Assembly: GCA_017620135.1 (NCBI GenBank)
Contig: JAFZQZ010000081.1
Span: 1-64,000, forward strand
DNA length: 64,000 bases
Source of the DNA: Bacillota bacterium
GTDB lineage: Bacteria; Bacillota; Clostridia; Lachnospirales; Bianqueaceae
Direction of reading: 5' to 3'
Below the pieces are notes generated by a model, which searched no databases, had not been told where the DNA came from, and was given only the letters and a program-made list of their open reading frames with translations. Of this stretch, positions 3,070 to 20,539 are shown piece by piece. Position numbers and translations under genes: made by a program. Positions within the stretch are counted from its first letter, which is position 1. Every line of letters starts with the position of its first letter.

Positions 3070-5022
3070 ATGAACACACAGGACAATTTTGACTCGTATG
3101 TATTTCATGAAGGTACAAATTACCGAGCTTATTCCTACTTCGGGCAGCACCCGGCGGTAGACGCGGAAGGGAATCCATGTACTGTCTTCAGGGTATGGGC
3201 CCCACATGCGTGGGATGTGAAAGTCATCGGCGATTTCAATGGATGGCAGGAGTGGAATGCGATCCAGATGGTCCGGATGCCGGATCAGAGCATCTGGGAA
3301 GGTTTCGCTTACGGTCTGAAGACCTATGACACCTATAAATACCGCGTGGTTGGCTCGGACGGACGGGTCGTTTTAAAGAGCGATCCTTTCGGTTTTCATA
3401 TGGAAACAAGGCCGGCGACCGGGTCCAAGATCTACGATATCAACGGCTACGAATGGCATGACGAAAAATGGCTTGCCAAGCGTGCGAAAACGGTTCCGTA
3501 CCGTGCGCCGATGAATATCTATGAGATGCATCTTGGTTCCTGGAAAATGCGTGACGGCGGTGAATTCTACGACTATGTTTCCATCGCGCAGGAAGTGGTC
3601 AAATATGTCAAGGAAATGGGCTATACCCATATCGAGGTCATGCCTTTATCGGAATATCCTTTCGACGGCTCCTGGGGATACCAGGTGCTGGGATATTTTG
3701 CGCCTACTTCCCGTTTCGGAACGCCGAAGGATCTCATGAAATTCGTGGATATCTGCCATCAGCACGGGATCGGCGTCATCATGGACTGGGTACCCGCCCA
3801 CTTCCCAAAGGATGAGCCGGGCCTGGCCATGTTTGACGGTCAGGCGCTTTACGAGTACGAGGATCCCAGAAAAGGCGAGCATTACGAATGGGGCACCAAG
3901 GTCTTTGACTACGGAAAGAAGGAAGTCGTCAGCTTCCTGATCTCCAGCGCGATGTACTGGCTGGATATGTATCATGTGGACGGACTTCGTGTCGATGCCG
4001 TCGCCGCCATGCTGTATCTGGACTACTGCCGTAAGGACGGCGAATGGGTCGCGAACAAGTACGGCGGAAGAGAGAACCTGGAAGCCGTCGAGTTCCTTCA
4101 GACACTGAACAAGGCTGTTTTCAAGGAGCATCCCGGTGCCCTGATGATCGCGGAGGAATCCACTGCCTGGCCGCTGGTGACCAAGCCGGTGGAGGATGGC
4201 GGTCTTGGATTCAACTTCAAGTGGAACATGGGCTGGATGAACGATATGCTGTGCTATGTGCAGATGGATCCGTTCTTCCGCCGTGACCATCACAACAATA
4301 TCACCTTCTCGCTGACCTACGCTTTCTCCGAGAACTATATCCTGCCCATGTCGCACGATGAAGTCGTGCATGGCAAGAAGTCCCTGCTGGACAAGCAGCC
4401 GGGCGATTACGGCATGAAGTTCTCCGGACTGCGCGCTTTCTACGGCTATATGATGGGACATCCCGGGAAAAAGATGCTGTTCATGGGAGGCGAGTTCGGG
4501 CAGTTCATCGAGTGGGATTATCACAAACAGCTCGACTGGTTCCTGCTTAGCTACAACATGCATCAGAAACTGCATGAATATGTGAAGGATCTGAATCATT
4601 TCTATCTGAAGCATTCGTCCATGTATGAACAGGATGATTCCTGGGACGGCTTCAAATGGATCTGTTATGATGACAACACACAGAATATCGTTTCCTTCCG
4701 CCGGATCGACCGGGACGGAAAGGAAGTGGTATGTGTCGTGAACTTCGCGCCGGTACTGCGTGAACACTACAGGATCGGTGTGGAAAAATACGCTTATTAT
4801 GTCGAAGCGCTGAACAGTGATGACGAGAAGTACGGAGGTTCCGGCGTGAAGAATGAGGGATGGATCCCGGCAGAGGAGATTCCGATGCACCGGTACGATT
4901 ATTCCATCGATATCACGGTACCGCCGCTTAGCGCTGTCTATTTCACACTGAGACCGAAGCGTAAACCCAAAGCCAAAGCGGACGAAGCCGACAAGGCTGA
5001 GAAAGCAGAAAAAGCAGAATAA
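3070..5022 (+). CDS. glgB: 1,4-alpha-glucan branching enzyme GlgB
   Basis: GlgB (650 residues) introduces alpha-1,6 branches into glycogen. It has the N-terminal CBM48-like region (VFRVWAPHAWDVKVIGDFNGW, about 39-59), the EMHLGSW motif at 152-158, and a GH13 barrel with nucleophile Asp309 in DGLRVDAVAA, acid/base Glu362 in IAEESTAWP, and the third acidic residue in LPMSHDEVVHGK. The tail is a low-complexity Lys/Ala/Glu stretch. ATG at 3070 follows a purine-rich site. It is the first gene of the glgB-C-D-A-P operon; glgC starts 31 bases after it with no terminator. Identification is secure. Confidence 0.97.
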   Translation: MNTQDNFDSYVFHEGTNYRAYSYFGQHPAVDAEGNPCTVFRVWAPHAWDVKVIGDFNGWQEWNAIQMVRMPDQSIWEGFAYGLKTYDTYKYRVVGSDGRVVLKSDPFGFHMETRPATGSKIYDINGYEWHDEKWLAKRAKTVPYRAPMNIYEMHLGSWKMRDGGEFYDYVSIAQEVVKYVKEMGYTHIEVMPLSEYPFDGSWGYQVLGYFAPTSRFGTPKDLMKFVDICHQHGIGVIMDWVPAHFPKDEPGLAMFDGQALYEYEDPRKGEHYEWGTKVFDYGKKEVVSFLISSAMYWLDMYHVDGLRVDAVAAMLYLDYCRKDGEWVANKYGGRENLEAVEFLQTLNKAVFKEHPGALMIAEESTAWPLVTKPVEDGGLGFNFKWNMGWMNDMLCYVQMDPFFRRDHHNNITFSLTYAFSENYILPMSHDEVVHGKKSLLDKQPGDYGMKFSGLRAFYGYMMGHPGKKMLFMGGEFGQFIEWDYHKQLDWFLLSYNMHQKLHEYVKDLNHFYLKHSSMYEQDDSWDGFKWICYDDNTQNIVSFRRIDRDGKEVVCVVNFAPVLREHYRIGVEKYAYYVEALNSDDEKYGGSGVKNEGWIPAEEIPMHRYDYSIDITVPPLSAVYFTLRPKRKPKAKADEADKAEKAEKAE

Positions 5023-5053
5023 TTAAATCATCATATCTTTGAAGGAGGATACC

Positions 5054-6274
5054 ATGCGCACGAAAAAAAGGACCGTAGCTATGCTTCTGGCCGGTGGCCA
5101 GGGGTCCCGTCTGGGCGTGCTGACCAAAAAGGTTGCCAAACCGGCAATTCCCTTTGGCGGCAAGTACCGGATCATCGATTTTCCCCTGAGTAACTGTGTT
5201 AACTCAGGCATTGACACAGTGGGTGTACTGACTCAGTACATGCCGCTGGATCTGAACGCTTATATCGGCAACGGCCAGCCCTGGGATCTGGACCGCAACG
5301 ATGGCGGTGTTTCCGTACTGCCGCCGTACAGCCGCGGTGCAAATGATGAATGGTACAAAGGCACCGCCAATGCCATTTATCAGAACATGCACTTCATCGA
5401 GCGTTATGATCCGGAATATGTGGTCATTCTTTCCGGCGACCATATCTACAAGATGGATTACAACGCGATGATCGAGTATCATGAGGAGAAGGGTGCTTCC
5501 GCAACGATCGCCGCGCTCAACGTGACGCTGGAAGAAGCCAGCCGCTTCGGTATCCTCAATACGAATGAAGACAACAAGGTTTATGAGTTCGAAGAGAAAC
5601 CGAAACATCCCAAATCAACCAAGGCTTCCATGGGCGTTTATGTCTTTACCTGGGCCAAGCTGAAGAAGTATCTGGAAGAAGATGAGGCGGATCCTACCTC
5701 CAGCAATGACTTCGGAAAGAATATCATCCCGAACATGCTGAACGCCGGCGAACCGCTTTACACCTATGAATTCGCGGGATACTGGAAAGACGTCGGAACA
5801 CTGCAGTCTCTGTGGGAAGCGAACATGGAATTGTTGCTGGAAGATTCTCCCGTCAAACTGAATGACAACACCTGGAAGATCTACGCCCGCAATCCCAATG
5901 AGCCTCCGGTTTATAACGGACCTAATTCCGATATCAGGAACTCCATGGTCTGCGAAGGCTCCGTGATCAACGGCAAGGTCGAGCATTCCGTGATCTTCTA
6001 CGGCGTGCATATCGGCGAAGGCGCTGTGATCAAGGATTCCGTGATCCTGCCCAATTCTGTGATCGGCGACGGCGCGATCGTCGAGTATTCGATCATCGGT
6101 CAGGAGACGAAGGTAGGCAAAGGTGCCAGGATCGGCGCAGCGGAAGAAGTCGCGAAAGCATTCTGCGAACCAGGCAAGATGACAGGTTATATGGCAGTTC
6201 TGGCAGATGAAATCAAGATCGGAGACGGTGTCGTCGTCAAACCGGGCGAGATGCTGGATCAGGATCGTGTCTAA
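5054..6274 (+). CDS. glgC: Glucose-1-phosphate adenylyltransferase, catalytic subunit GlgC
   Basis: GlgC makes ADP-glucose from glucose-1-phosphate and ATP, the committed step of glycogen synthesis. The nucleotide-binding loop GGQGSRLG is complete (residues 14-21), followed by [14 protein letters not shown], the [10 protein letters not shown] segment and C-terminal left-handed beta-helix hexapeptide repeats ([16 protein letters not shown]). I place the start at ATG 5054 (406 residues) because AGGAGG at 5044-5049 is correctly spaced; a TTG 15 bases upstream would overlap that site. glgD follows after 14 bases; the two proteins probably form a mixed enzyme. Confidence 0.97.
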
Positions 6275-6288
6275 GGAGGTGAAAACGC

Positions 6289-7431
6289 ATGAAAAGCACA
6301 ATGGGTCTTTTGTTCGCCTATCAGAACGATGAGCAGATGAAAGCGCTCACACAGAAGCGTGCGCTTTCTTCCATTCCTTTCGGCGGACGTTACAGGATCG
6401 TAGACTTCGCTCTTTCGAATCTGGTCAATTCCGGTATCACCAAGGTAGGTATCATCACCAGAGACAGCTATCAGTCTCTGATGGACCATCTGGGATCCGG
6501 TAAAGAATGGGATCTTTCCCGTAAGAACGGCGGCATGTATCTGCTTCCGCCTTTCTCACAGGGCGGATCCGGCTACGCCGGCACCGGTGTTTACCGCGGC
6601 AAGATGGAAGCGCTTCTGAACGCTGCCAACTTCATCCGTAAATCCGATGCGGAAAACGTGATCCTTACTTCCGCGGACTGTATCTTCAATATGGACTTCC
6701 GTGACGTCGTGGATTTCCATGAGGAGAAGGAAGCGGATATTACCGTTATTTATCATAAGGCTGTTCTGGAGCAGAAGGACAACGGCGAGACCGGTACCAT
6801 TTATACCGTCGGTGAAGATGGCAGGATCCTGGATGTAGCGATCAATCCTTCTCCCGCGCTGGTGAAGGGCGAAGTCAACCTGGGCATCAGCCAGATCGTG
6901 ATCGGCCGGGGCCTTCTGGAGACGCTGATCGCCGAGTGCGCGAGCCATAATATGTACAGCCTGCACAGAGATGTTCTGCAAAGACGGGTCAATGATCTCA
7001 AAATTTATGGCTATGAATATGACGGATATTGTGCTAAAATTGATTCCGTTGCGTCCTATTTCGACGCCAACATGGATCTTTTGAACGAGGATATCCGCAA
7101 AGCGCTGTTCTATACCGACAGACAGATCTTCACCAAGATCCGTGACGAGTCTCCCGCGATCTACCGCGATGGTTCGAACGTAAAGAATTCGCTGGTCGCG
7201 GACGGCTGCATTATTGAAGGCACCGTCGAGAACAGCGTGATCTTCCGCGGTGTGCGCGTCCGTAAAGGCGCGGTCATCCGCAACAGCATCGTGATGCAGG
7301 ACTGTGAGATCCAGGCAGGATCACAGCTTGAATATGCCATTATCGATAAAGACGTCGTTATACGTGAGAACCGTAAACTCTTCGGTTATAAGATGTATCC
7401 CATGGTTCTCGCAAAAGGTTCGGTGGTTTAA
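6289..7431 (+). CDS. glgD: Glucose-1-phosphate adenylyltransferase-like subunit GlgD
   Basis: GlgD is a GlgC paralogue found beside glgC in Bacillota. The protein (380 residues) keeps FGGRYRIVDFALSN, the TSADCIFNMDF segment and the C-terminal beta-helix repeats, but its N-terminus (MGLLFAYQNDEQMKAL) has no GGxGxRL nucleotide loop. It is therefore inferred to act as a regulatory or stabilising partner of GlgC rather than as an independent enzyme, as known for the family. AAGGAGGTG precedes ATG 6289. glgA begins two bases after its stop, so the two are translationally close. Confidence 0.95.
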   Translation: MKSTMGLLFAYQNDEQMKALTQKRALSSIPFGGRYRIVDFALSNLVNSGITKVGIITRDSYQSLMDHLGSGKEWDLSRKNGGMYLLPPFSQGGSGYAGTGVYRGKMEALLNAANFIRKSDAENVILTSADCIFNMDFRDVVDFHEEKEADITVIYHKAVLEQKDNGETGTIYTVGEDGRILDVAINPSPALVKGEVNLGISQIVIGRGLLETLIAECASHNMYSLHRDVLQRRVNDLKIYGYEYDGYCAKIDSVASYFDANMDLLNEDIRKALFYTDRQIFTKIRDESPAIYRDGSNVKNSLVADGCIIEGTVENSVIFRGVRVRKGAVIRNSIVMQDCEIQAGSQLEYAIIDKDVVIRENRKLFGYKMYPMVLAKGSVV

Positions 7432-7433
7432 GT

Positions 7434-8873
7434 ATGAAAGTATTATACGTCTCTGCTGAGGCTGTCCCGTTTGCGAAATCGGGCGGCCTCGGCGACGTCG
7501 CCGGTGCGCTTCCGGCCGCGCTTCGCCGCCGGATGGTAGGCTGCCGCGTCGTGCTTCCGCTGTATCAGGAGATCCCCCAGGAACTGAAAGATCAGATGCA
7601 TTTCGTCAAAGAAATGTGGGTCCCGCTTTCCTGGAGAAGTCAGTACTGCGGTATTTTCGAAGCGAAAGTCGGCGATGTCATCTACTATCTGCTGGATAAT
7701 CAGTATTATTTCGGCCGTAAGGGTTATTACGGCCACTATGATGACGCGGAGCGTTTTGCGTTCTTCTCTAAAGCGGCGCTGGAGATGCTGCAGCACATCG
7801 ATTTCGAACCCGATGTGATGAACTGTAATGACTGGCAGACCGGTCTGGTACCGTTCTACCTGAACAAGTTCTACCGCGGGGTCAATGAGATGTACGCGAA
7901 GCTTCAGGTCGTTTACACGATCCATAACATCCAGTATCAGGGCATTTTCTCGCCGGATATCGTCGAGAACGTGCTTGGTGTGGACTGGAATGACTATGCC
8001 GGCGGATATCTGCAGTTCGACAACTGTGTCAACTATATGAAGACCGGTATTCTGGCAGCCAGCTGGATCACCACCGTTTCTCCGACCTATGCCGAAGAGA
8101 TCAAGGATCCGTTCTTCGCTCATGGCCTGCAGGATCTTCTCCGTCAGGAGAGCCCGAAGCTGTCCGGGATCGTCAACGGTATCGATACGGTGATGTATGA
8201 TCCGAAAACGGACACCCACCTGTTCAAGAATTATTCGCTGGAGACCATCGAGGACAAGAAGGTCAACAAGCTGGAACTGCAGAAACTTTTGAATCTCAAT
8301 CAGAAGGCCGATGTCCCGATCATCGCGATCGTCTCCAGACTGGCGGACCATAAAGGTCTCGATCTGGTAGCGGCTGTGCTGAATGATATCCTTGGTGATG
8401 ATGTGCAGCTGGTGGTCCTTGGAGTAGGCGAGTGGCAGTATGAAGAGATGCTTCGTTCCGCCGCCAGGGCTTATCCGGGCAAGGTTTCCGCGAATATCCT
8501 CTTCAATATCGATCTGGCGCAGAAGATCTATGCAGGCGCGGATATGCTGCTGATGCCGTCGCTCTCTGAACCGTGCGGCTTGTCGCAGATGATCGCCATG
8601 CGTTACGGTACCATTCCGATCGTCCGGGAGACCGGCGGCCTGAAGGACACCGTACAGCCGTTTATCGCTGCTGACGGTACGGGCAACGGCTATTCCTTCG
8701 CGCAGTATAACGCCCATGACATGCTGTATGTCATCCGTCAGGCAGTAGCGGATTATCACGATTCAGAAAAATGGGCCAAAGTGATGAAGAATGCCATGGA
8801 GACCGATGTTTCCTGGAACGGACCGGCCAAAGATTATATCGCTCTTTACCGGAAGATCACCGGAAAAAGATAA
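7434..8873 (+). CDS. glgA: Glycogen synthase GlgA (GT5)
   Basis: GlgA transfers glucose from ADP-glucose to the non-reducing end of a growing alpha-1,4-glucan. It has 479 residues, the usual length. The N-terminal ADP-glucose loop KSGGLGD begins at Lys15; the GT-B C-terminal half carries SEPCGLSQMIAMRYGTIPIVRETGGLKDTV, shown here only in part, the family's conserved nucleotide-sugar region. It starts two bases after glgD, with a purine-rich stretch in the end of glgD as the ribosome site, and is followed by glgP after 33 bases without a terminator. Confidence 0.97.
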   Translation: MKVLYVSAEAVPFAKSGGLGDVAGALPAALRRRMVGCRVVLPLYQEIPQELKDQMHFVKEMWVPLSWRSQYCGIFEAKVGDVIYYLLDNQYYFGRKGYYGHYDDAERFAFFSKAALEMLQHIDFEPDVMNCNDWQTGLVPFYLNKFYRGVNEMYAKLQVVYTIHNIQYQGIFSPDIVENVLGVDWNDYAGGYLQFDNCVNYMKTGILAASWITTVSPTYAEEIKDPFFAHGLQDLLRQESPKLSGIVNGIDTVMYDPKTDTHLFKNYSLETIEDKKVNKLELQKLLNLNQKADVPIIAIVSRLADHKGLDLVAAVLNDILGDDVQLVVLGVGEWQYEEMLRSAARAYPGKVSANILFNIDLAQKIYAGADMLLMPSLSEPCGLSQMIAMRYGTIPIVRETGGLKDTVQPFIAADGTGNGYSFAQYNAHDMLYVIRQAVADYHDSEKWAKVMKNAMETDVSWNGPAKDYIALYRKITGKR

Positions 8874-8906
8874 ATTTGTAACACGTTAGTTAGGGGAAAG
8901 TTTTTA

Positions 8907-11348
8907 ATGACTAAGAAAGAACTGAAAGAAAAGATCGAAGGCAAGCTGAAACGCCACTACGGCGTAGAGGTAGATGAAGCGAAGCCTTTGATGATCTATG
9001 ATGCCTGTGCGCAGACGATCCGAGATATCATGATGGACAAATGGGTCGCGACCAAACACACGATCCATAAAAGAAAAGCCAAACAGCTCTGCTATCTGTC
9101 TGTCGAGTTCCTGCTCGGAAGATCTCTTCGCAACAATGTTTTCAGTCTGGGACTGATGAAACAGATGGAAGGCGTTCTGAAGGATTTCGGAACGACTTTT
9201 GAAGATATCTGCAATGTGGAGCAGGACGCCGCGCTGGGCAACGGAGGTCTGGGAAGACTTGCCGCGTGTTATATGGATGCCATGTCCTCACAGGGCCTTC
9301 CTGCGACAGGCTACAGTATCCTGTATGAATACGGTCTTTTCAAACAGCGTATTGTGGAAGGTCAGCAGACCGAGCTTCCGGACAGCTGGCTGGATACCGG
9401 CCGAAGCTGGCTGGTGACAAAAGAAGATGAAGCTGTGGAAGTACGCTTTGGCGGCAGAGTCGAGGAAGAATGGACAGAAGACGGAATGAAAGCCCACCTG
9501 GTGGACTGTGACGTCGTACGCGCCGTTCCGAACGACATGCTGATCCCGGGATACAGGTCCAAGATCGTCAATTCACTGCGTCTGTGGCAGCCGAAGTCGG
9601 TCTATACGATGAATATGACCCTGTTCAACTCCGGTGATTACCTGAAAGCGATGGAGCATGCCGTAACGGCGGAAGTCCTTTCCAAGGTCCTCTATCCGGA
9701 AGACAGCAGCTATGAAGGAAAATCCCTTCGTATCAAACAGCAGTATTTCTTCGTATCCGCCTCCATCCAGTCGATCGTCCAGAAACACATGGAGCACTAC
9801 GGAACATTGTCCTCACTGGCCGATAAGATCGCGATCCAGATCAATGATACGCATCCGGCCATGGTCATTCCGGAACTCATGCGTATCCTGATGGACGATT
9901 ACGGCATGAGCTGGGATGAAGCGTGGGATATCACCACCCATACGGTCGCCTATACGAATCATACCGTTATGGTGGAAGCGCTCGAGAGATGGCCGGAAGA
10001 CCTGATCCAGCGGATTGTACCGAGGATCTATCAGATCATCCTGGAGATCAACCGCCGCTTCTGTGAGCATCTGTGGACGGTATTTCCCGGCGACTGGCAG
10101 AAGATCGCCTACATGTCGATCGTCGGCCGCGGAGAGATCCGCATGGCGCATCTTTCGATCGCCGGCTCCTTCAGTGTCAACGGTGTTTCCGCGCTGCACA
10201 GCCAGATCCTGAAAGATGACTGCTTCCATGATTTCTATCTGGATACACCGGAAAAATTCACGAATGTCACCAACGGCATCACCTATCGCCGCTGGCTTGG
10301 ACAGGGCAACCCCGGTCTGACTCAGCTGATCACCGATTCGATCGGAAACGGATTTATGAAAGATCCGTACGAACTGGAGAAGCTGAAAGCATTCGCGGAT
10401 GATGCGGAATTCCTGAAGAAATTCGGGCAGATCAAGCGGGAAAACAAGATCCGTCTCGCGAAGTATATCGAGAAGGAAAACGGGATCATCCTCGATCCGG
10501 ATTCGATTTTCGACGTACAGGCAAAACGTCTGCACGAGTATAAGCGTCAGCTGCTGAATGTACTGCATATCCTTCGTCAGTACTATGAGATCAAGGACAA
10601 TCCTTCGATGGATGTCGTTCCGAAGACATACCTCTTCGGCGCGAAGGCAGCGCCCGGATACAGCCGCGCGAAAGAGATCATTCGTCTGATCCATGCGGTC
10701 GCCGATATGGTGAACAATGATCCGGATGTGGCCGGCCGCATCAAGGTCGTATTTATCCAGGATTATAAGGTGACAGTGGCAGAGATCCTGATGCCCGCCG
10801 CGGAACTTTCCGAACAGATCTCCACCGCAGGCCGCGAGGCTTCCGGTACCGGCAACATGAAGTTCATGCTGAACGGCGCGATCACGATTGGTACCTATGA
10901 CGGCGCGAATATCGAGATCTTCGAACGTGTCGGAGCGGATAACTTCTTCCTGTTCGGTATGAAGACGGAAGAAGTGAATAATCTGATCCGCCGCGGCTAC
11001 GACGCGATGCAGTTCTATACGAACAATAGCTGGATCAACCGTGTCGTGAGCGCGATCCAGCACGGCGTCGGACGACCCGGTCATGAAGTCGCATTCCCCG
11101 GGATCGCGAATTCGCTCCTGTTCAACAATACCGGAAATATCGCCGATCCGTATCTGGTCCTGGCTGATTTTGAAGATTACTGCCGCGCGCAGAATGAAGC
11201 GTCGAAAGTATATCTGGATCAGCTGGCATGGAACCGCAAAGCGCTCATCAATACAGCGATGTCCGGTGACTTTGCCGCGGATCGTTCTGTCCTGGAGTAT
11301 GACAGGGATATCTGGCATCTGACACATCTGAACAGTCTATCAAAATAA
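8907..11348 (+). CDS. glgP: Glycogen/starch phosphorylase GlgP (GT35)
   Basis: GlgP releases glucose-1-phosphate from alpha-1,4-glucan chains using phosphate and pyridoxal phosphate. The 813-residue protein shows NGGLGRLAACYMDAM near the N-terminal domain, the active-site stretch AKRLHEYKRQLLN and the cofactor motif EASGTGNMKF, with Lys652 as the expected Schiff-base lysine. TAGGGGAAAG lies upstream of ATG 8907. With glgB, C, D and A it makes the operon both synthetic and degradative. An unknown acidic protein follows after 17 bases. Confidence 0.97.
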   Translation: MTKKELKEKIEGKLKRHYGVEVDEAKPLMIYDACAQTIRDIMMDKWVATKHTIHKRKAKQLCYLSVEFLLGRSLRNNVFSLGLMKQMEGVLKDFGTTFEDICNVEQDAALGNGGLGRLAACYMDAMSSQGLPATGYSILYEYGLFKQRIVEGQQTELPDSWLDTGRSWLVTKEDEAVEVRFGGRVEEEWTEDGMKAHLVDCDVVRAVPNDMLIPGYRSKIVNSLRLWQPKSVYTMNMTLFNSGDYLKAMEHAVTAEVLSKVLYPEDSSYEGKSLRIKQQYFFVSASIQSIVQKHMEHYGTLSSLADKIAIQINDTHPAMVIPELMRILMDDYGMSWDEAWDITTHTVAYTNHTVMVEALERWPEDLIQRIVPRIYQIILEINRRFCEHLWTVFPGDWQKIAYMSIVGRGEIRMAHLSIAGSFSVNGVSALHSQILKDDCFHDFYLDTPEKFTNVTNGITYRRWLGQGNPGLTQLITDSIGNGFMKDPYELEKLKAFADDAEFLKKFGQIKRENKIRLAKYIEKENGIILDPDSIFDVQAKRLHEYKRQLLNVLHILRQYYEIKDNPSMDVVPKTYLFGAKAAPGYSRAKEIIRLIHAVADMVNNDPDVAGRIKVVFIQDYKVTVAEILMPAAELSEQISTAGREASGTGNMKFMLNGAITIGTYDGANIEIFERVGADNFFLFGMKTEEVNNLIRRGYDAMQFYTNNSWINRVVSAIQHGVGRPGHEVAFPGIANSLLFNNTGNIADPYLVLADFEDYCRAQNEASKVYLDQLAWNRKALINTAMSGDFAADRSVLEYDRDIWHLTHLNSLSK

Positions 11349-11365
11349 AGAACCAACAAGATAAA

Positions 11366-12541
11366 ATGACAGAAAAAATCAAAGAACTTTTGATCCGTGG
11401 GATCGATGCAGAGAAGCTCATGAATGAGCTTTCTCTGCATTTTGCTGAAGAACTGGAAGGACCGCTGGAAGCGTCGCCCGTACTGAAAGAATTCATGGAA
11501 CGCTGCAGCGATCTGAGAGGATTCTTTGCTGCGCAGGATGAGGATCTTTCCGCAGATGAGCTGGACCTTCTGGGCGATCTGAATGAGGATATCGACTACG
11601 AGCTGATGTACCAGTTCGATCTCGTGGAGGACGCGGTCAAGGAAGATCTGATCCATGGAAAGCTATCTTCCGATATCCGGAAGGATATGAGAAAAGGCGG
11701 GATCGTACCGCTTCATCCGGGAGAACCGTTTACGGAAGATGAGATCGAAGAGTACTACGTAGAAGCCTTTCGTGACTTCGATGCTGTCAGGATCCGGATC
11801 TATGAAGGGATCCTGGACCTGTCTCCGGCAGAATTCCTGCAGAAGGGAAAAGATGCCAGAGAAGCGTTCAGAAAATCCCGCGGACTTTCGATGGACGAAC
11901 AGGATTTCAACCGGTATTATCTGGACACGTTCGATCAGGAAAGACTGCAGCAGGTATTTGCCCGCAAGATCTATGATTCCATTCATTTCCACAGCCGCTA
12001 TGTACTGGAGTCATTCGATGAAGATGACGAAGAAAGCGCTTCTTCCGGCCCGGTCTGGCAGGATGAGGAAGACGAGACAGATCTTCCGGGCCAGGCTCCG
12101 GAGGAAGACGGTGTGCTGGTAGCTGCCGGTGATCTTCATCCCGAGGACTTTACCTTCGTATATGAGCTGTTGTCAGAGTACAACGGTCACCGTATCCTTC
12201 CTTCGGACGATCCGCTTACCGAACAGGCGTACTGGGAGACCTACGCGGATGAATTCGCACAGGTCCTCGGAGAATATATGATCATGCATCTCGAAGAGAC
12301 GATCGAGTACTTCGATACGAAGCGTCCGGCTGATTACGGTACGCTTTCCAGGCTTTACGGATGGTCCCGGGAGTCCAGGAAAAATCCGGAAATCATTCTT
12401 TCTTCCTGCGAGAAGATCAGCTTTTTCCTGTCCGACCTGCAGGAACGGCTGTGGGGGGATTTTCTGGAAGAAGAACTGATGCCGCTGTACCTTCAGGGAC
12501 AGGAGATCGCCTCCGGCGCGGGCGCCAGTCCCGAGGCTTGA
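11366..12541 (+). CDS. Acidic protein of unknown function, last gene of the glycogen operon
   Basis: I do not recognise this 391-residue protein. It has no signal peptide, no obvious transmembrane segment and no motif I can name. It is strongly acidic and looks mainly helical, in two parts joined by an Asp/Glu-rich, low-complexity linker at about residues 214-250 (SFDEDDEE, QDEEDETD). The C-terminal part is rich in aromatic residues (YWETYADEFAQ, SRLYGWSRES). Codon use resembles its neighbours, which supports a real gene. It starts 17 bases after glgP, and no promoter or terminator separates them, so it is probably co-transcribed with the glg genes. The Shine-Dalgarno site is weak. A role in glycogen metabolism is only inferred from position. 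Confidence 0.75.
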   Translation: MTEKIKELLIRGIDAEKLMNELSLHFAEELEGPLEASPVLKEFMERCSDLRGFFAAQDEDLSADELDLLGDLNEDIDYELMYQFDLVEDAVKEDLIHGKLSSDIRKDMRKGGIVPLHPGEPFTEDEIEEYYVEAFRDFDAVRIRIYEGILDLSPAEFLQKGKDAREAFRKSRGLSMDEQDFNRYYLDTFDQERLQQVFARKIYDSIHFHSRYVLESFDEDDEESASSGPVWQDEEDETDLPGQAPEEDGVLVAAGDLHPEDFTFVYELLSEYNGHRILPSDDPLTEQAYWETYADEFAQVLGEYMIMHLEETIEYFDTKRPADYGTLSRLYGWSRESRKNPEIILSSCEKISFFLSDLQERLWGDFLEEELMPLYLQGQEIASGAGASPEA

Positions 12542-12566
12542 TTTTTCAGCAGAAACCTGCTATAAT
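12538..12566 (+). promoter_or_regulatory. Sigma-A promoter for the peptide ABC transporter operon
   Basis: TTGATT (12538-12543) and a perfect TATAAT (12561-12566) are separated by 17 bases. The -35 box overlaps the stop codon of the preceding gene. The spacer contains a perfect 5-base inverted repeat, AGCAG (12548-12552) and CTGCT (12557-12561), with a 4-base centre that could be an operator; no T-run follows, so it is not a terminator. Confidence 0.75.
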
Positions 12567-12612
12567 GTTTTAGACAATTTCATATGAGAGAGCGAGAATC
12601 GAGGTATTCCAA

Positions 12613-14169
12613 GTGAAAAGATCATTAGCTATTCTTTTGGCATTTGGGCTCATTCTTTCCGCTGTACTGACCGGATGTGCGTCAGACGGCAAGAAAGAAG
12701 AGACCGGAGAGGACGCTCCGAAACACACGGAAACAGAGCCTTCGTACGGCGGACATCTTGTCTACGGTATGACACAGGATCTGGTAAGTCTTGACCCTCA
12801 CGAAAGTACAGACGCAGGAACGAGAAGTGTGGTTTTCAATATCTATGAAGGACTGGTAAAGCCTTCCTCCAGCGGTGACCTGATCGCGGCGGTGGCCGAA
12901 GATTATCAGATCGATCAGGCGGGAACGGAATATGTCTTTACGCTGAGAGAAGGCATAAAATTCCAGAACGGTCAGGAAGTGACCCTGAAAGATATTGAAT
13001 ATTCCTTCAATCGTTATGCGGAGTTTTCGGGAGAAAACTCCGCTTTTGTTAAGTCTGTCAAAGAATTGTCCTTCCCGGACGAGAAGACGGTCAGGATCAC
13101 CCTTACCAATCCGGATTCGGAGTTTCTGTCCGAACTGACGTTCGCGATCATCCCGGACGGGAACGATCCGAATGAGAACCCCATCGGTACCGGGCCTTAT
13201 ATGGTCACGGAGTATAAAGCCGGACAGTATCTGGATCTTTCCAAAAACCAGTATTACTGGGTCGAGAAAGAACCTTATCTGGATACGGTACGCTTCAAGT
13301 TCATCTCGGATGTCAATACCGCGTTTACGGAACTCCAGGCCGGTACGATCGATGTACTGAACTATCTGACGACCGCGCAGGTCGAAGCGCTGAAGAAAAG
13401 CGCGGGAGATGAGTTCCGGATCGTGGAAGGCAACATGAACCTGGTCCATGCCATGTATTTGAACAATCAGGCAGGACCGCTCAGCGACGTACGCGTCCGT
13501 CAGGCGCTCTGTTACGCGGTCGACCGGGATGCCATCAACAGTTTCCTTTTCGCGGGAAAGAGCATCATCATAGGTTCCCATATGACGCCGCAGCTTCCGA
13601 CCTGGTATGAACCGGCCGCAGCTTCCGTCTATACCTACGACGTGCAGAAAGCGAAGGATCTGCTCGAGCAGGCAGGATACAAGGACGGATTCGATCTGAC
13701 GATCACAGTTCCGAGCGCCTATTCACAGCACGTGGATACCGCGCAGATCATCGCGGATCAGCTGTCTCTGGTAGGCATCAGGGTAACGATCAAACAGGTA
13801 GAGTGGACCGTCTGGCTTTCCGACGTCTACAAAGGCCGGGATTATGAAGCGACGGTCATCGGGTTTGACGGAAAGCTCAATCCCAGCGACTGGATGGCAA
13901 AGTACGGTACCGACGCGCCTAAAAACATGATGAATTACTCGAACGCCGAGTACGATGAACTGCTGGAGAAGGCACTGAAAGCAGTCGATACGGAAGAAAA
14001 GGCGTCCTATTACAAACAGATGCAGATGAATCTGGCGGAGAATGCCGCTTCTGTCTACATCGAGGATCCGGCGGACTTTGTCGCGATGAACAGTCAGTTC
14101 GACGGATATGTGTTTTATCCCACTACCGCATGGGATGTGTCGAAGATCTATCAGATCAGTGGTAAATAG
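12613..14169 (+). CDS. Peptide-type ABC transporter substrate-binding lipoprotein (SBP_bac_5)
   Basis: This is the extracytoplasmic receptor of a dipeptide/oligopeptide-type importer (518 residues). It opens with a lipoprotein signal: Lys/Arg, a hydrophobic stretch and lipobox LTGC, making Cys22 the lipidated residue. The family signature for solute-binding family 5 follows: DLVSLDPHESTDAGTRSVVF and later YSFNRYAEF. The start is GTG 12613 with GAGG at 12600-12603. The next three genes encode the permeases and the ATPase. Substrate (peptide, nickel or sugar-like ligand) cannot be told from sequence alone; peptides are the commonest case. Confidence 0.92.
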   Translation: MKRSLAILLAFGLILSAVLTGCASDGKKEETGEDAPKHTETEPSYGGHLVYGMTQDLVSLDPHESTDAGTRSVVFNIYEGLVKPSSSGDLIAAVAEDYQIDQAGTEYVFTLREGIKFQNGQEVTLKDIEYSFNRYAEFSGENSAFVKSVKELSFPDEKTVRITLTNPDSEFLSELTFAIIPDGNDPNENPIGTGPYMVTEYKAGQYLDLSKNQYYWVEKEPYLDTVRFKFISDVNTAFTELQAGTIDVLNYLTTAQVEALKKSAGDEFRIVEGNMNLVHAMYLNNQAGPLSDVRVRQALCYAVDRDAINSFLFAGKSIIIGSHMTPQLPTWYEPAAASVYTYDVQKAKDLLEQAGYKDGFDLTITVPSAYSQHVDTAQIIADQLSLVGIRVTIKQVEWTVWLSDVYKGRDYEATVIGFDGKLNPSDWMAKYGTDAPKNMMNYSNAEYDELLEKALKAVDTEEKASYYKQMQMNLAENAASVYIEDPADFVAMNSQFDGYVFYPTTAWDVSKIYQISGK

Positions 14170-14189
14170 AAGGAAAGGAGGTGGCCGGT

Positions 14190-15119
14190 ATGCAGGCAAT
14201 TGTCAAAAAATTATTCTCTCTCATCCTGACGGTACTGGTCATTTCTTTTCTGACTTTTATTATCTTTTCGATCATTCCCGGCAACGCGGCACTGGCAAAG
14301 CTGGGAGTAGACGCTTCGCCGGAGCAGATCGCGGCAATGGAAGAAAAACTGCAGCTGAATGACCCGGTCATCATACGGTACGGAAGGTGGCTCTTTGGTG
14401 CGCTTCGGGGCGATTTCGGCGAGTCACTGCAGTATTCGGGCGTGACGGTAGGGGAGCTTCTGGGAAGCCGTCTGCCGGTGACGATGGTACTTGCGGGGAT
14501 CTCCTTTTTATTGATCGTCCTGCTGTCGGTCCCTGTCGCGCTTTTCTGTGTGAAGTTCAGGGACAGATTGCCGGACAGGATCCTGACAGTCCTTGGACAG
14601 GTAATGATGGCGGTTCCGGCTTTCTTTCTGGGCATCCTCATCACCTATATCTTTGGTTTACTGCTGCGCGCCTTCCGGCCCGGCGCCTATGAAGGGCTGT
14701 CGCTTAGATATCTGTTCTTCCCGGCGCTCTCGATCGCGATCCCGAAGATCGCGATGACGGTCCGGTTTCTCAAAAGCTCTGTAAGAGGTGAACTTTCGCA
14801 GGATTATGTCCGGACAGCCAGAGCGCATGGCGCCAGTGAGGATCAGGTACTGAAAAACCATGTGCTGAGGAACGCGCTGATCCCTGTGATCACCTTTCTC
14901 GCACTGGTCATCGGTGAGATCCTGGCAGGCAGTATCGTCGCGGAACAGGTATTCAGTGTTCCCGGACTGGGAAGGCTGCTGATCACATCGATCTCTGCCA
15001 GGGATTATCCGGTCGTCCAGGCGATCGTCATGTATATCACCACGGTGGTCGTCTCGCTGGATTTTCTGGTCGATCTTCTGTACCGGCTGGTGGATCCCAG
15101 GCTGAGGAGGGGAGGCTGA
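14190..15119 (+). CDS. ABC transporter permease, DppB/OppB type
   Basis: This is the first membrane subunit of the peptide-type importer (309 residues), with a first transmembrane helix at about residues 7-28, five further hydrophobic segments and the EAA-loop region typical of the family (DYVRTARAHGASEDQVLKNH). I chose ATG 14190 because AAGGAGG just upstream is optimally placed; a GTG at 14181 overlaps that site. It follows the receptor gene by 20 bases, and the second permease starts one base after its stop, giving tight coupling. Confidence 0.93.
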   Translation: MQAIVKKLFSLILTVLVISFLTFIIFSIIPGNAALAKLGVDASPEQIAAMEEKLQLNDPVIIRYGRWLFGALRGDFGESLQYSGVTVGELLGSRLPVTMVLAGISFLLIVLLSVPVALFCVKFRDRLPDRILTVLGQVMMAVPAFFLGILITYIFGLLLRAFRPGAYEGLSLRYLFFPALSIAIPKIAMTVRFLKSSVRGELSQDYVRTARAHGASEDQVLKNHVLRNALIPVITFLALVIGEILAGSIVAEQVFSVPGLGRLLITSISARDYPVVQAIVMYITTVVVSLDFLVDLLYRLVDPRLRRGG

Positions 15120-15120
15120 G

Positions 15121-15957
15121 ATGAAGAAAAGCTGGACTTTCGCCCGTATACGGGAATTCCTTCGGCTCAACCCCAAGATTCTGATCGGGCTGATCCTGGT
15201 ATCCTTTTTCGCGGTCATGTCTCTGATCGGTCAGTTCTGGACTCCCTATATCGTCACAAGGATGGACGCCTCCAGTGTTTCCGAGGCGCCGTCGCTCCTT
15301 CACTGGATGGGTACGGATAATTTCGGGCGGGATGTTCTTTCCCGTGTCATGAACGGAAGCGGCATCACGATCCTCGTCGCACTGATCACGGTACTGATCG
15401 GCGGGATCATAGGGACGATGATCGGCGCGCTGACCGGTTATTTCGGCGGGATCGTCGATGAGATCATCATGCGGCTCAATGACATTCTGCTGTCCTTTCC
15501 CAGCGTACTTCTGGCACTTTTGCTGATCAGTTTTCTGGGTCCGGGCACCATCAATGTCGTTCTGGCGCTGGGGATCCTTTTTATCCCGAGTTTCGCGCGT
15601 ATGGTACGGAGCGAAGTCATCCGGTACCGGGACCGGGATTTTGTCCGCAACGCCCGGCTGCAGGGGATCAGACCGCTGCGCATCATTCTGATACATATCC
15701 TGCCGAATGCCAGGATCAGTATCCTGACAGCGGCAGCGATCGGTTTCAACAACGCGGTGCTGGCAGAGGCCAGTATGAGTTATCTGGGACTGGGCGTACA
15801 GCCACCCACCCCGTCACTGGGACGGATGCTCTTCGAGGCACAGAGTTTTCTGCTCAATTGCCCGTGGTACGCGATCTTTCCGGGTATCACCATTATTCTG
15901 ATGATCCTGGGCGCGGCGCTTCTGTCTGAAGGGTTTAAGGAAGTGAGCGGGGCATGA
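15121..15957 (+). CDS. ABC transporter permease, DppC/OppC type
   Basis: This is the second membrane subunit of the importer (278 residues). The N-terminal helix precedes the family motif HWMGTDNFGRDVLSRVMNGS, diagnostic for DppC/OppC proteins, and an EAA-loop (DFVRNARLQGIRPLRIILIH) that should dock on the ATPase. GGGGAGG precedes ATG 15121. Its last codons overlap the start of the ATPase gene as ATGA, so translation of the two is likely coupled. Confidence 0.94.
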   Translation: MKKSWTFARIREFLRLNPKILIGLILVSFFAVMSLIGQFWTPYIVTRMDASSVSEAPSLLHWMGTDNFGRDVLSRVMNGSGITILVALITVLIGGIIGTMIGALTGYFGGIVDEIIMRLNDILLSFPSVLLALLLISFLGPGTINVVLALGILFIPSFARMVRSEVIRYRDRDFVRNARLQGIRPLRIILIHILPNARISILTAAAIGFNNAVLAEASMSYLGLGVQPPTPSLGRMLFEAQSFLLNCPWYAIFPGITIILMILGAALLSEGFKEVSGA

Positions 15958-17561
15958 GTATGGATGAATTATTAAGAGTCAGTCATCTGAACGTGTCTTT
16001 TCCGGATGATGATCCGTATGACGGGATCGAAGAGAGGGACACGGTGGTCCGGGAACTTTCTTTCACGATGAAACCGGGTGACATTCTGGGCGTCGTCGGT
16101 GAATCCGGCTCCGGAAAATCCATGACAGCCCTTTCTGTCATACGTCTTTTGAAAAAATCAGCCCGTGTCGATTCCGGGCAGATCCTCTTCCAGGGGAAAG
16201 ACCTGCTGAGCCTTTCCGAAGAAGAATTATGCGATCTTCGGGGCCTGGGGATCTCCATGATCTTCCAGGAGCCTATGACTTCTCTCAATCCGGTACTTCG
16301 GATCGAATCCCAGGTCTCGGAGGCACTGAGGCTCCATCCGGGGAAAGAGCCTCTGAGCACGGAAGAGATCCATCAGAAAGTACGGAAGGTACTGGAAGAC
16401 GTCGGTCTTCCGGATCCGGAAGGCGTATGCCGGATGTATCCGCATGAGCTTTCCGGCGGTATGAGACAGAGAGTGATGATCGCGGCCGCGCTGATCACGG
16501 ATCCTTCTTTGCTGATCGCGGATGAGCCGACGACCGCGCTGGATGTTCTGATCCAGGAACAGATACTGGATCTTCTGAAAGAGATCCATGAGCGGACCGG
16601 GGTCGCCATTTTGTTTATCTCCCATGATCTGCATGTCATCCGGCGTCTCTGCGACAGAGTGCTGGTGATGTATCAGGGACAGATCGTGGAAGAAGGAGAA
16701 ACGAAAGAGGTACTGGATCATCCTCAGCACGAATATACGAAAACACTGGTAGCGAGGATCCCCAGGGTAGCGACTGTTCCGGGAGATACGCCGGTACTGG
16801 AGATGGAGGATGTAACGATCTATTATCCGCCCCGCGGAGCCTCTTCCGGCCTTTTCCGTAAGGTCAAAGTGGAGCCCTATGTGTACGGTGCCAGCCTGAA
16901 ACTCTATCAGAATGAGATCCTGGGTATCGTCGGAGGATCGGGCAGCGGAAAGTCTACGATCGGAAAAGTCCTGACCGGCCTGCACGGGATCTATGACGGG
17001 ACGATCCGGCTGTTCGGTCAGCCTCTGGAGAAGGTCCTGGCCGGGAATGAGAGGCCGCAGATGATCTTCCAGGATCCGTACAGCGCGCTCAATCCTTCGC
17101 ATACGATCGGATGGACACTGATGGAAACGCTCCGGAGCAAAGGGACCCGTTCCAGAGAAAAGCAGCAGGAAATGGCGCTTCAGATGCTGGAGGAAGTCGG
17201 ACTTTCGGAGGCGATCTTCCACCGGTATCCGAGAGATCTTTCCGGCGGCCAGCGCCAGCGGTGCTGCATCGGACAGGCGCTTTTATACGATCCGAAGATC
17301 CTGATCGCGGACGAACCTGTTTCCGCGCTGGACGTGACGGTCTCCTCACAGGTACTGGAACTGCTTCTGAAGCTGCAGAAACAGCGGCATATGTCGATGA
17401 TCTTCGTGTCGCATGACATGAATATCGTCCGGCTGATCTGCCACCGGGTGATCGTGCTCGATCACGGAAGGATCGTGGAAGAAGGGCCGTCGGAGGAGAT
17501 CTTTGCGCATCCTTCGCACGCCTATACGAAAAAGCTGATCGAGGCAGCCATGCTGGAGTAA
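15954..17561 (+). CDS. Fused double ATPase of the peptide-type ABC transporter (DppD-DppF fusion)
   Basis: Both nucleotide-binding domains of the importer are in one 535-residue chain. Domain 1 has Walker A GESGSGKS (49-56), signature LSGGMRQR and Walker B LLIADEPTTALD. Domain 2 has Walker A GGSGSGKS (327-334), signature LSGGQRQR and Walker B ILIADEPVSALD. Each domain carries the C-terminal oligopeptide-transporter extension (HPQHEYTKTL and HPSHAYTKKL). Most Dpp/Opp systems encode these as two proteins; fused forms such as YejF are known. Start ATG 15954 overlaps the preceding stop by four bases. The gene ends the operon; no convincing terminator follows. Confidence 0.95.
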   Translation: MSMDELLRVSHLNVSFPDDDPYDGIEERDTVVRELSFTMKPGDILGVVGESGSGKSMTALSVIRLLKKSARVDSGQILFQGKDLLSLSEEELCDLRGLGISMIFQEPMTSLNPVLRIESQVSEALRLHPGKEPLSTEEIHQKVRKVLEDVGLPDPEGVCRMYPHELSGGMRQRVMIAAALITDPSLLIADEPTTALDVLIQEQILDLLKEIHERTGVAILFISHDLHVIRRLCDRVLVMYQGQIVEEGETKEVLDHPQHEYTKTLVARIPRVATVPGDTPVLEMEDVTIYYPPRGASSGLFRKVKVEPYVYGASLKLYQNEILGIVGGSGSGKSTIGKVLTGLHGIYDGTIRLFGQPLEKVLAGNERPQMIFQDPYSALNPSHTIGWTLMETLRSKGTRSREKQQEMALQMLEEVGLSEAIFHRYPRDLSGGQRQRCCIGQALLYDPKILIADEPVSALDVTVSSQVLELLLKLQKQRHMSMIFVSHDMNIVRLICHRVIVLDHGRIVEEGPSEEIFAHPSHAYTKKLIEAAMLE

Positions 17562-17585
17562 GCGGTCATGTCACCGCGAAATCAC

Positions 17586-17614
17586 TTGGCTTTCTTGACA
17601 GACTGTGATATAAT
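17586..17614 (+). promoter_or_regulatory. Sigma-A promoter for the membrane protein-Clp unfoldase pair
   Basis: TTGGCT (17586-17591) and TATAAT (17609-17614) are 17 bases apart, with an extended -10 TGA directly before TATAAT. A short inverted repeat GCGGT/ACCGC (17562-17577) sits just upstream of the -35. I see no CtsR-type direct repeat. Confidence 0.7.
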
Positions 17615-17647
17615 GGTTTCACTTATTTTGATTTTTGGGAGGAGTAT

Positions 17648-18202
17648 ATGAAAAAGAAAGGAAGGGTTTTCAGGATCATTCTGAATATTCTGATCGGTCT
17701 TCTGGGAGCGGCGTTTATCGTAGCGGCGTTCCTCTATGGCGATTGGGTTTTCGATCATATGAAAACGCCGTCGCTCGTCAGCGACGCCGAAATGCCGCAG
17801 CAGTTCCTTTTCAGCGCTACCTCCTGGTGGGAAGACGATGAATTTCCGAGCCGCACGATCCTTGAGGAACCTTTGTGGCTGACTTCTGTCGAGGAGGCCG
17901 GCGCGCAGTTCTCTTCTTATCTGGAGACGCTTCCGGAAACGAAGAAAGAAGAACTGACAAACCAGGTCGAGTATCTGAGATCTCCCGAGGTCCAGAAGAA
18001 ACTGAAGAACCGTGTCCATAATTCTGACAGAACGCTTACGATCACAGAGTTCCGGTCCATGACGCCGGCGATCGATCCGGATGGAAAACTTGTGATGATC
18101 TATTCGGTAACGATCACTAAGACTACCTACGACGACGATGATAATGAGATCGTGACCAAACAGAATTTCGAGATATACGGTCGTCTTCCGGAGGAAGAAT
18201 AA
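17648..18202 (+). CDS. Membrane-anchored protein of unknown function upstream of a Clp unfoldase
   Basis: I do not recognise this 184-residue protein. A short positively charged N-terminus (MKKKGR) is followed by one hydrophobic helix at about residues 8-30, predicting a type II single-pass anchor with about 150 residues outside the cytoplasm. The outer part is polar, with a tandem Asp stretch (YDDDDNE) and no cysteine. GGAGGA lies just upstream of ATG 17648. Its own promoter is seen, and the Clp gene starts six bases after its stop with the Clp ribosome site inside this gene, so the pair is one transcription unit. Function unknown. Confidence 0.8.
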   Translation: MKKKGRVFRIILNILIGLLGAAFIVAAFLYGDWVFDHMKTPSLVSDAEMPQQFLFSATSWWEDDEFPSRTILEEPLWLTSVEEAGAQFSSYLETLPETKKEELTNQVEYLRSPEVQKKLKNRVHNSDRTLTITEFRSMTPAIDPDGKLVMIYSVTITKTTYDDDDNEIVTKQNFEIYGRLPEEE

Positions 18203-18208
18203 ACAGCA

Positions 18209-20539
18209 ATGCTTTGTCAAATTTGTCATACGAATACAGCCGTACTTTTTGTCAATCGAATAGAAAACTCAAAACCCAAACAGCTGGCCCTGTGCCTGAG
18301 CTGCGCCAAAAAGCAGGGGATCCCGCTTCATAATCTCATGCAGAGCCCGGGCGGGATCAACCAGGAGGAACTGGAAAATATCGGGAAGCAGATGAATGAG
18401 CTCATGGAGCAGATGCAGGAGGATGGTTCCCTGGAAGGACTTTCCCAAATGATCCCGCCGCAGTTCCTGAATATGCTGAAAGGCGCGACCCATCCCGGAG
18501 AGGATGACGAAGACGCAGCGGAGGAAACGGAAAATACACCATCCGATTCTGCTTCCGGATCCTCTTCGCCGGACGGGAAGAGCGTGCAGGAAGAAGACCC
18601 TGTCGCCGCGAAAGCCAAGGCCCGGCGTAAACGCAACGAAAAACTGAAAACGCTTTCCAAGTTCGGTACGAACCTGACCGATAAGGCGGAAGACGGGGAG
18701 ATCGACGGCGTGATCGGTCGGGAAAACGAGATCGATCGTCTGATGCAGATCCTGAACCGGCGTACGAAGAACAATCCCGTGCTTCTCGGTGAACCCGGCG
18801 TAGGAAAGACGGCCATCGCGGAAGGATTCGCGCTGAGGATCGCCCGAGGAGAAGTCCCGGTCAAGCTTCGCGACAAGCAGGTCGTTCTTCTGGATATGAC
18901 AGGCCTGGTCGCGGGTACGCAGTTCCGTGGTCAGTTCGAAGCCCGTATGAAGGCGATCATCAATGAAGTGACGGCCGCCAGGAATGTGATCCTCGTGATC
19001 GATGAGATCCATAATCTCGTCGGCGCCGGCGACGCGCAGAACTCGATGAACGCCGCGAATATATTAAAGCCGGCGCTTGCCAACGGTTCCATCCAGGTCA
19101 TCGGTACGACGACACTGGACGAATACCGCAAATATATAGAAAAAGACGCCGCGCTGGAACGCCGTTTCCAGCCGATCATCGTGGATGAGCCGAGCCGCGA
19201 GGAGGCGGTCGCGATCCTGAAAGGGATCCGTTCACACTACGAAGATTATCATAATGTCAGAATCTCCGATGAAGTGATCGAAGACGCGATCTCTCTTTCT
19301 CAGCGCTATATCCATCAAAGGTATCTGCCGGATAAGGCCATCGATGTCATCGATGAAGCCGGCAGCCGCGTCAATCTGAACAATACCGGTCTCATCGATC
19401 TGCAGAATCTGGAGAAAACGCTCCAGGTCACCACGCAGAAAAAAGAAGAGGCAGCCGCCAGCGAAGATTTCGAAGCAGCTGCCAGATATCGTGTGGAAGA
19501 ACTCAAACTAAGCAGAGAGATCGAAGAGACACGGGAAAAGAGCAGTCATATCCCGCTCAGCTACGATGACGTCGCCCATGTGATCGAAAGCTGGACGAAG
19601 ATCCCTGTCAGCCGTCTGACAAAGGCGGAAGCGGATAAGCTGCTTCATCTGGAAGATCATTTGCATGAGCATCTGATCGGTCAGGATCAGGCGGTCAGCG
19701 CCGTTTCCCGCGCGATCCGCAGAAACCGTTCCGGCTTCCGGAAAGAGCGCAAACCGGCTTCCTTCATTTTCGCCGGTCCGACCGGCGTCGGTAAGACAGA
19801 ACTTGCCAAACAGCTGGCGATCGAAATGTTCGGTACGGAAGACGCGATCGTTCGGATCGATATGTCGGAATATATGGAAAAGCACACCGTTTCCAAACTG
19901 ATCGGCGCGCCTCCAGGATATGTGGGATACGATGAAGGCGGTCAGCTGACCGAAAAAGTCCGCCGTCGTCCCTTCTCGATCGTACTGCTGGATGAGATCG
20001 AAAAGGCTCATCCGGATGTCTTCAATATGCTCCTTCAGATACTGGACGACGGAAGGCTCACAGATTCACAGGGCCGTACGATCAACTTCGAGAATACGAT
20101 CATCATTATGACGACGAACGCCGGCGCCAGCTTCAAGGCTTCCTCTCTTGGCTTCAATCAGTCCGCGCCGACTTCCTTAAGTCTTCGGATCCAGGACGCC
20201 CTGAAGCAGACTTTCCGTCCGGAATTTTTAAACCGTGTGGATGATGTCATCACGTTTGATCCGCTCAGCCGCGAACAGATCCGGCAGATCGTCGATCTGA
20301 TGCTGGAGGATATCTACAAAGCCGCCAAAGATCAGTCGATGACGGTCGATGTCAGTGACGAGGTCAAGGATTATCTGGCCGAACATGGCTATGATGAACA
20401 GTATGGTGCCAGACCGCTTCGCCGACTCATCCAGCGGCTCATCGAGGATGAGATCGCGGAAGAGTTCCTGAAAGGGACTGTCAAAGAAGGCGATCAGATC
20501 CATCTGGTCCTGGAAGGAGATAAAATCGTAATTCAATAA
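18209..20539 (+). CDS. Clp ATPase with N-terminal zinc finger (ClpE-like)
   Basis: This 776-residue AAA+ unfoldase should feed substrates to ClpP. It opens with a four-cysteine zinc finger (CQIC at 3-6 and CLSC at 29-32), the hallmark of ClpE and also resembling McsA, instead of Clp-N repeats. A charged low-complexity linker follows (about 95-145). AAA domain 1 has Walker A GEPGVGKT (194-201); the middle region carries a UVR motif (EDFEAAARYRVEELKL); AAA domain 2 has Walker A GPTGVGKT (523-530). The LGF in SSLGFNQ occupies the ClpP-binding loop position. Start ATG 18209. Length exceeds Bacillus ClpE because of the linker. Close to ClpE, with ClpC-like middle features, so no symbol is assigned. 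Confidence 0.92.
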   Translation: MLCQICHTNTAVLFVNRIENSKPKQLALCLSCAKKQGIPLHNLMQSPGGINQEELENIGKQMNELMEQMQEDGSLEGLSQMIPPQFLNMLKGATHPGEDDEDAAEETENTPSDSASGSSSPDGKSVQEEDPVAAKAKARRKRNEKLKTLSKFGTNLTDKAEDGEIDGVIGRENEIDRLMQILNRRTKNNPVLLGEPGVGKTAIAEGFALRIARGEVPVKLRDKQVVLLDMTGLVAGTQFRGQFEARMKAIINEVTAARNVILVIDEIHNLVGAGDAQNSMNAANILKPALANGSIQVIGTTTLDEYRKYIEKDAALERRFQPIIVDEPSREEAVAILKGIRSHYEDYHNVRISDEVIEDAISLSQRYIHQRYLPDKAIDVIDEAGSRVNLNNTGLIDLQNLEKTLQVTTQKKEEAAASEDFEAAARYRVEELKLSREIEETREKSSHIPLSYDDVAHVIESWTKIPVSRLTKAEADKLLHLEDHLHEHLIGQDQAVSAVSRAIRRNRSGFRKERKPASFIFAGPTGVGKTELAKQLAIEMFGTEDAIVRIDMSEYMEKHTVSKLIGAPPGYVGYDEGGQLTEKVRRRPFSIVLLDEIEKAHPDVFNMLLQILDDGRLTDSQGRTINFENTIIIMTTNAGASFKASSLGFNQSAPTSLSLRIQDALKQTFRPEFLNRVDDVITFDPLSREQIRQIVDLMLEDIYKAAKDQSMTVDVSDEVKDYLAEHGYDEQYGARPLRRLIQRLIEDEIAEEFLKGTVKEGDQIHLVLEGDKIVIQ

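Follow-up and report, generated by a model that had tools for sequence, protein, structure and literature searches.

The gene cluster that most resembles the one studied here is the glgBCDAP operon of lactobacilli, known from Lactobacillus acidophilus as glgBCDAP-amy-pgm; in the accessible parts of its descriptions, the order and direction of the glg genes are the same as here (PMC10395257; PMC4282360). The Lactobacillus acidophilus operon ends in genes for amylase and phosphoglucomutase, whereas ours ends in a gene for an acidic protein instead. Operons of this kind are known already; what the present one adds at its end is an unclassified gene specific to the lineage. A protein acting on glycogen phosphorylase has been described in E. 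coli, where HPr binds the enzyme and alters both its oligomeric state and its activity, according to the available portion of the report (PMC11046441). The acidic protein might work in a like manner, as a GlgP-binding protein that alters the state of the enzyme. HPr belongs to the PTS, whereas the protein studied here is acidic, has its gene together with glgP and gave no match to a known family or fold. A further comparison can be made with the Rubisco assembly chaperone RbcX, the gene of which sits beside the gene of its client. The C-terminal part of the acidic protein shows a weak helical likeness to RbcX, with a Z score of only about 4, and the acidic protein is the larger of the two, having a helical N-terminal half in addition. 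Searches of the open-licence literature turned up nothing that describes a gene of this kind.

The locus belongs to Bacillota bacterium GCA_017620135.1 (Clostridia; Lachnospirales; Bianqueaceae) and was analysed within positions 1-64,000 of the forward strand of contig JAFZQZ010000081.1; this whole stretch of 64,000 nucleotides is called the window below. The five glg genes were identified by NCBIfam models above cut-off, the acidic protein gene as an open reading frame with an ATG start, and the two promoter-like features by consensus match only:

2987-3024, + strand: two overlapping promoter-like sites (10/12 each) 5′ of glgB, a possible operon start
3070-5022, + strand: glgB, branching enzyme, at the start of the operon
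5039-6274, + strand: glgC, glucose-1-phosphate adenylyltransferase
6289-7431, + strand: glgD, adenylyltransferase subunit
7434-8873, + strand: glgA, glycogen synthase
8907-11348, + strand: glgP, glycogen/alpha-glucan phosphorylase, directly 5′ of the acidic protein gene
11366-12541, + strand: acidic protein gene (391 aa, helix-rich, without known family)
12538-12566, + strand: promoter-like site (10/12, TG before the second hexamer) between the acidic protein gene and the transporter gene, where the next transcription unit may begin

The glg genes stand in the canonical glgBCDAP order and a single direction, with gaps of 2-33 bases. Upstream of glgB lies ligA and, farther out, the apparent end of pcrA, and the 3′ neighbour of the acidic protein gene is a transporter gene encoding a family 5 solute-binding protein. 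A strong terminator-like hairpin (11 pairs) was seen within the latter gene, at window positions 13018-13043.

A site scan of positions 2900-18300 listed no terminator-like site between glgP and the acidic protein gene, and a weak promoter-like site (9/12, second hexamer CAAAAT) within the end of glgP at 11319-11346. The scanned region held 23 promoter-like sites vs. 13.2 +/- 4.7 in shuffles, and 24 terminator-like sites vs. 12.6 +/- 3.6; as shuffled sequence also yields such matches, single sites of either type are suggestive only. The initial annotation had stated that neither promoter nor terminator separates the two genes: for the terminator this held, while for the promoter the statement is fair but not proven, given the weak 9/12 site. 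Its description of the acidic protein gene as the last gene of the operon fits the 10/12 promoter-like site ahead of the transporter gene. Judged from these sequence features, the likely transcription unit comprises glgB-C-D-A-P and the acidic protein gene.

The acidic protein has a pI of 4.22, with 95 D/E against 36 K/R residues, and its ATG follows the glgP stop after a gap of 17 bases, so that the size, acidity and spacing given initially are borne out by the open reading frame coordinates and the pI. Comparison with the 91% identical copy in a related genome (G006) gave a dN/dS of 0.09. This purifying selection, together with homologues in 18 other genomes, rules out a chance open reading frame and establishes a real gene. 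Its dN is the highest among the eight genes compared with G006, in which GlgP differs at 0.2% of residues, and the median pairwise difference of 0.69 for the acidic protein vs. 0.33 for GlgP points to fast evolution of the former. All 18 aligned homologues, some of them partial, have a pI of 4.08-4.44 and a D/E-rich linker. The whole-protein alignment (A1) comprises these 18 rows, without an 80-residue fragment from G002, and the C-terminal domain alignment (A3) has 17 rows, also leaving out a truncated copy from G003. A frameshift near position 7718 of locus L030 divides the G018 copy, through either assembly error or decay.

Homologues were found in 19 of 96 genomes, including the window's own, by a single-sequence search. 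We regard this search as the fair one, since the order-wide profile was built from most members it finds and its E-values are for that reason non-independent. The host family carries the acidic protein in 18 of its 19 genomes. The sole genome without a match (G017, 66% complete) has a contig that ends in part of a gene similar to polysaccharide deacetylase, 3′ of glgP, and thus does not cover the expected site of the acidic protein gene. Outside the host family, one of the 373 genomes sampled in the order has a homologue (G031) and 372 have none. In samples of the class (391 genomes including the window's, profile search) and of the phylum (299 genomes including the window's), the window's own copy was the only convincing one. 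Weak profile matches in other families (E 0.005 and 0.007, two of the 391 class genomes) were taken as chance, as were those obtained with the G031 protein as query (E 0.0009-0.004, four genomes). By these searches, the acidic protein group appears nearly private to one clostridial family. Metagenome assemblies account for six of the relatives, under the titles Bacillota, Clostridia, Clostridiales or Lachnospiraceae; goat omasum and deer rumen appear in two of the titles, and two carry RUG numbers, which belong to a rumen series. A viral origin was also considered and rejected: a viral contig scan with the single protein found no relative, and PHROGs matches were weak, no PHROGs family touching more than two of the 18 members (best E 0.0033).

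In all 18 host-family genomes with a homologue, that is, in 18 of the 19 genomes that have one, the acidic protein gene lies 3′ of glgP on the same strand. The distance is at most 30 bases in 13 of these 18 and 155 bases in one, and in four a deacetylase gene stands between. In G008, G015 and G018 the glgP stop and an in-frame ATG share bases in the sequence ATGA; the corresponding overlap in G012 reads TAATG, and in G002 a single base separates stop and start. The intervening polysaccharide deacetylase genes occur in two genera (L024:9527-10522, L026:10587-11504, L031:5664-6500 and L032:9846-10682) and were identified by Pfam in the three scanned copies and by similarity in the fourth. On the 3′ side, a transporter gene of peptide type follows in five genomes of genera 1 and 2 (G000, G006, G004, G011 and, after one further gene, G007); G005 and G001 have other neighbours, and G002 and G003 have contigs that stop too soon. 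Genus 3 has an unclassified gene at this place, with another open reading frame intervening in G012, and genera 4 and 5 have a PfkB kinase gene in 5/5 genomes. Directly 3′ of the homologue, L026:8309-9439 and L027:9659-10438 encode two more proteins for which Pfam gave no match. As the 3′ neighbours vary between groups of genera, the association with glgP is more durable than ordinary local gene order. On the upstream side, pcrA-ligA-glg is likewise conserved in several genera and the genomes are related, so the linked cases do not count as independent events. Pairwise distances of the acidic protein and GlgP are correlated (Spearman 0.81, 14 genomes, pairs non-independent), a parallel divergence expected from joint vertical descent.

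The survey of homologue neighbourhoods suggested by the initial annotation supports a link to glycogen, with glgP upstream on the same strand in 18/19; homologues situated mostly away from glg genes, which it had named as evidence to the contrary, were not what was found. We looked also for analogues behind glgP elsewhere, covering up to about 1500 bases and ATG-started open reading frames of at least 70 residues, with some contigs stopping sooner. No profile match was obtained among 23 open reading frames downstream of 20 same-order glgP loci (best E 0.21), nor at E 1 among 37 downstream of 29 other-order glgP loci.

The one unlinked homologue, in G031, is a 346-residue protein matched by the window protein at E 4.6e-12 and reciprocally at 3.3e-13. 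G031 represents another family of the same order, as its sole sampled genome. Here the homologue is followed after 167 bases by a glutamate dehydrogenase gene and preceded by a divergent gene, with a GH94 gene beyond the latter, and both glgP genes are on contigs other than the homologue's, which indicates that the acidic protein family can exist outside glycogen operons. A role tied to glycogen, as proposed at the outset, is supported by the 18/19 homologues behind glgP and the lack of a family match at E <0.001; regulating, scaffolding or anchoring of glycogen enzymes would be candidate forms of this role. With the G031 homologue lying away from glgP, the family need not be tied to glycogen everywhere.

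An AlphaFold2 model of the whole protein, computed with 18 sequences, had a mean pLDDT of 86 and a pTM of 0.73. It bears out the helix-rich character noted earlier and, together with conservation or alignment, delimits three parts:

11366-11989, + strand: residues 1-208, N-terminal all-helical part (model and conservation)
12023-12112, + strand: residues about 220-249, low-confidence flexible acidic linker (model and alignment)
12113-12517, + strand: residues 250-384, the bulk of the C-terminal alpha/beta part (model and conservation)

In the N-terminal part F84, E88, D89 and D139 are invariant, and D85, D125 and E128 are present in 17/17 or 17/18 sequences. The linker region comprises 16-43 residues across the 18 aligned sequences, 34-57% of them D/E. 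The C-terminal part has short strands followed by helices, the first strand (210-215) lying before the linker, and gave a pLDDT of 81 when modelled alone. Residues 250-300 are the best conserved stretch, with invariant G255, Y272, G274, R276 and W290; Y212, L251 and D256 are further invariant or nearly invariant positions. Among the aromatic residues, Y272 is found in 18/18, W290 in 17/17 and Y289 in 14/17 sequences.

The early statement that no domain is recognisable agrees with the Pfam and NCBIfam searches, which gave no family for the window protein even at E 10 and, for all members, neither an enzyme nor a DNA-binding family at E <0.001; the clear match to an unrelated family that would speak for another role was thus not seen at this threshold. 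Weak matches above E 0.001 in single members included those to a sigma factor model (0.0042, 2/18) and a dGTPase (0.0076, 1/18), and the best sequence matches in the PDB (E 0.055 with the protein, 0.21 with the alignment) were taken as chance. A fold search of the PDB with the whole model gave a best Foldseek E of 1.3 and a best Z of 6.9 (over 111 and 120 residues), to short helical bundles; with the C-terminal domain the best E was 3.1 and the best Z 4.1. The lack of fold matches for the whole protein model and its C-terminal domain is not proof of a new fold.

For GlgP as a candidate partner, we noted a match at 1e-200 in 77 of the 87 searched genomes from other families of the order; as these families have GlgP without the acidic protein, GlgP does not as a rule depend on it. 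A GlgP signature tied to the acidic protein, seen as 21 fixed differences between 16 host-family and 20 same-order GlgP proteins with an apparent cluster at 134-144, was rejected, because other-order GlgP shares most of the 134-144 motif and the class search gave no convincing homologue. Host-family GlgP (window 8907-11348) has up to 54% identity to GlgP of other orders of the class (loci L099-L118, L149-L177), against about 50% within its own order, or 52% in partial matches; from these identities, the glgP of the operon may have been gained or exchanged laterally.

A lysine-rich C-terminal tail of GlgB is frequent in the host family (window 4966-5022, loci L119-L129). The tail beyond the core has a net charge of +6 to +10 in 7/11 host-family proteins and at most 10 residues in 18/19 others of the order; in the window's own GlgB the net charge of the tail is near zero. 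Genera 4 and 5 (G009, G010, G013, G014, G016, G017) gave no GlgB match at 1e-100 in 6/6 genomes, yet five of the six carry the acidic protein. We therefore rejected the tail as sole partner and consider GlgB in general unlikely to be the only one. The genes glgC, D, A and P were seen in 4/6 genomes of genera 4 and 5, and these genera may use another branching enzyme.

The acidic protein probably serves glycogen metabolism as a helper or regulator private to this lineage. The place behind glgP, the start/stop overlap in some genomes, the absence of an enzyme family, the acidity and the flexible linker are together best fitted by a protein-binding role, and we favour an adaptor or GlgP regulator that acts by protein binding. 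As we picture it, the gene would be co-transcribed with glgBCDAP and translationally coupled to glgP; the product would bind a glycogen enzyme, GlgP being the first candidate as it is encoded directly upstream, and binding would tune the activity, oligomeric state or place of the enzyme on the glycogen particle. This reading, a lineage-specific glycogen accessory protein made from the glgBCDAP transcript that binds and tunes a glycogen enzyme, most likely GlgP, is the one we put forward, tentatively; HPr in E. coli sets a precedent for control of a bacterial GlgP through a bound protein (PMC11046441). Counting against GlgP binding are the position of the G031 homologue, the presence of GlgP without the acidic protein elsewhere and the fast evolution. 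A bolder version, in which we would be dealing with a new family of dedicated regulators or assembly factors of bacterial glycogen phosphorylase, translationally coupled and nearly confined to one clostridial family, seems to us unlikely, if worth stating.

Rather doubtful is the idea of a passenger, a protein of unrelated house function trapped behind glgP in an ancestor of the host family. The G031 homologue unlinked to glgP agrees with it, and the conserved pcrA-ligA-glg order in several genera implies that part of the glgP linkage was simply inherited; nevertheless, the gene stays in place while its 3′ genes are exchanged between genera, stays even with a deacetylase between, and its start overlaps the glgP stop in four genomes. 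Association with both synthesis and breakdown genes could also point to a glycogen-particle protein, which binds glucan or keeps enzymes on the granule. The conserved Y272, W290 and Y289 in the C-terminal part would suit this role, and prokaryotic glycogen-associated proteins are hardly studied, as far as the available part of one source goes (PMC8116748). Because there is no carbohydrate-binding module among the Pfam/NCBIfam matches, and a net charge near -50 would be unusual in a glucan binder, we hold the particle protein to be improbable.

Small, too, are the chances we give to a dedicated assembly chaperone of RbcX type, holding a glycogen enzyme subunit until the GlgP dimer or the GlgC/D tetramer forms. 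Strong acidity and a gene beside that of the client generally fit an assembly chaperone. In a second structural look at the C-terminal domain the top ten rows were RbcX or RbcX-related (Z 3.6-4.1 over 84-88 residues, rmsd 4.8-7.8): eight titles name RbcX, one a chaperone-bound Rubisco intermediate and one 'ORF134', which we take to be RbcX. A Z of about 4, however, is within the chance range and makes the likeness no more than a lead, Foldseek E exceeds 5 for these entries, and other families of the order have GlgP without the acidic protein. The RbcX family was absent among the Pfam/NCBIfam matches of all 18 members up to E 1. The least probable of these alternatives, in our view, is an enzyme with a novel fold, in which the conserved acidic residues would form a metal or nucleotide site and which would act, for example, on ADP-glucose or phosphorylated glucan. 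D85, E88, D89, D125, E128 and D139 on the long helices, as well as D256 and R276, vary little or not at all. Such acidic sets recall the all-alpha NTP pyrophosphatases of MazG/dUTPase type, helical bundles with acidic metal-binding motifs on neighbouring helices; but no all-alpha NTP pyrophosphatase was among the best 50 of 89 Foldseek rows, which does not by itself discount one, and there was no family match at E <0.001.

The preferred reading, an accessory protein that would bind and tune GlgP, gives the locus its interest. Having remained beside glgP despite marked divergence, the gene offers a concrete candidate for a GlgP-binding partner, in a field where proteins associated with prokaryotic glycogen are described as hardly studied (PMC8116748).
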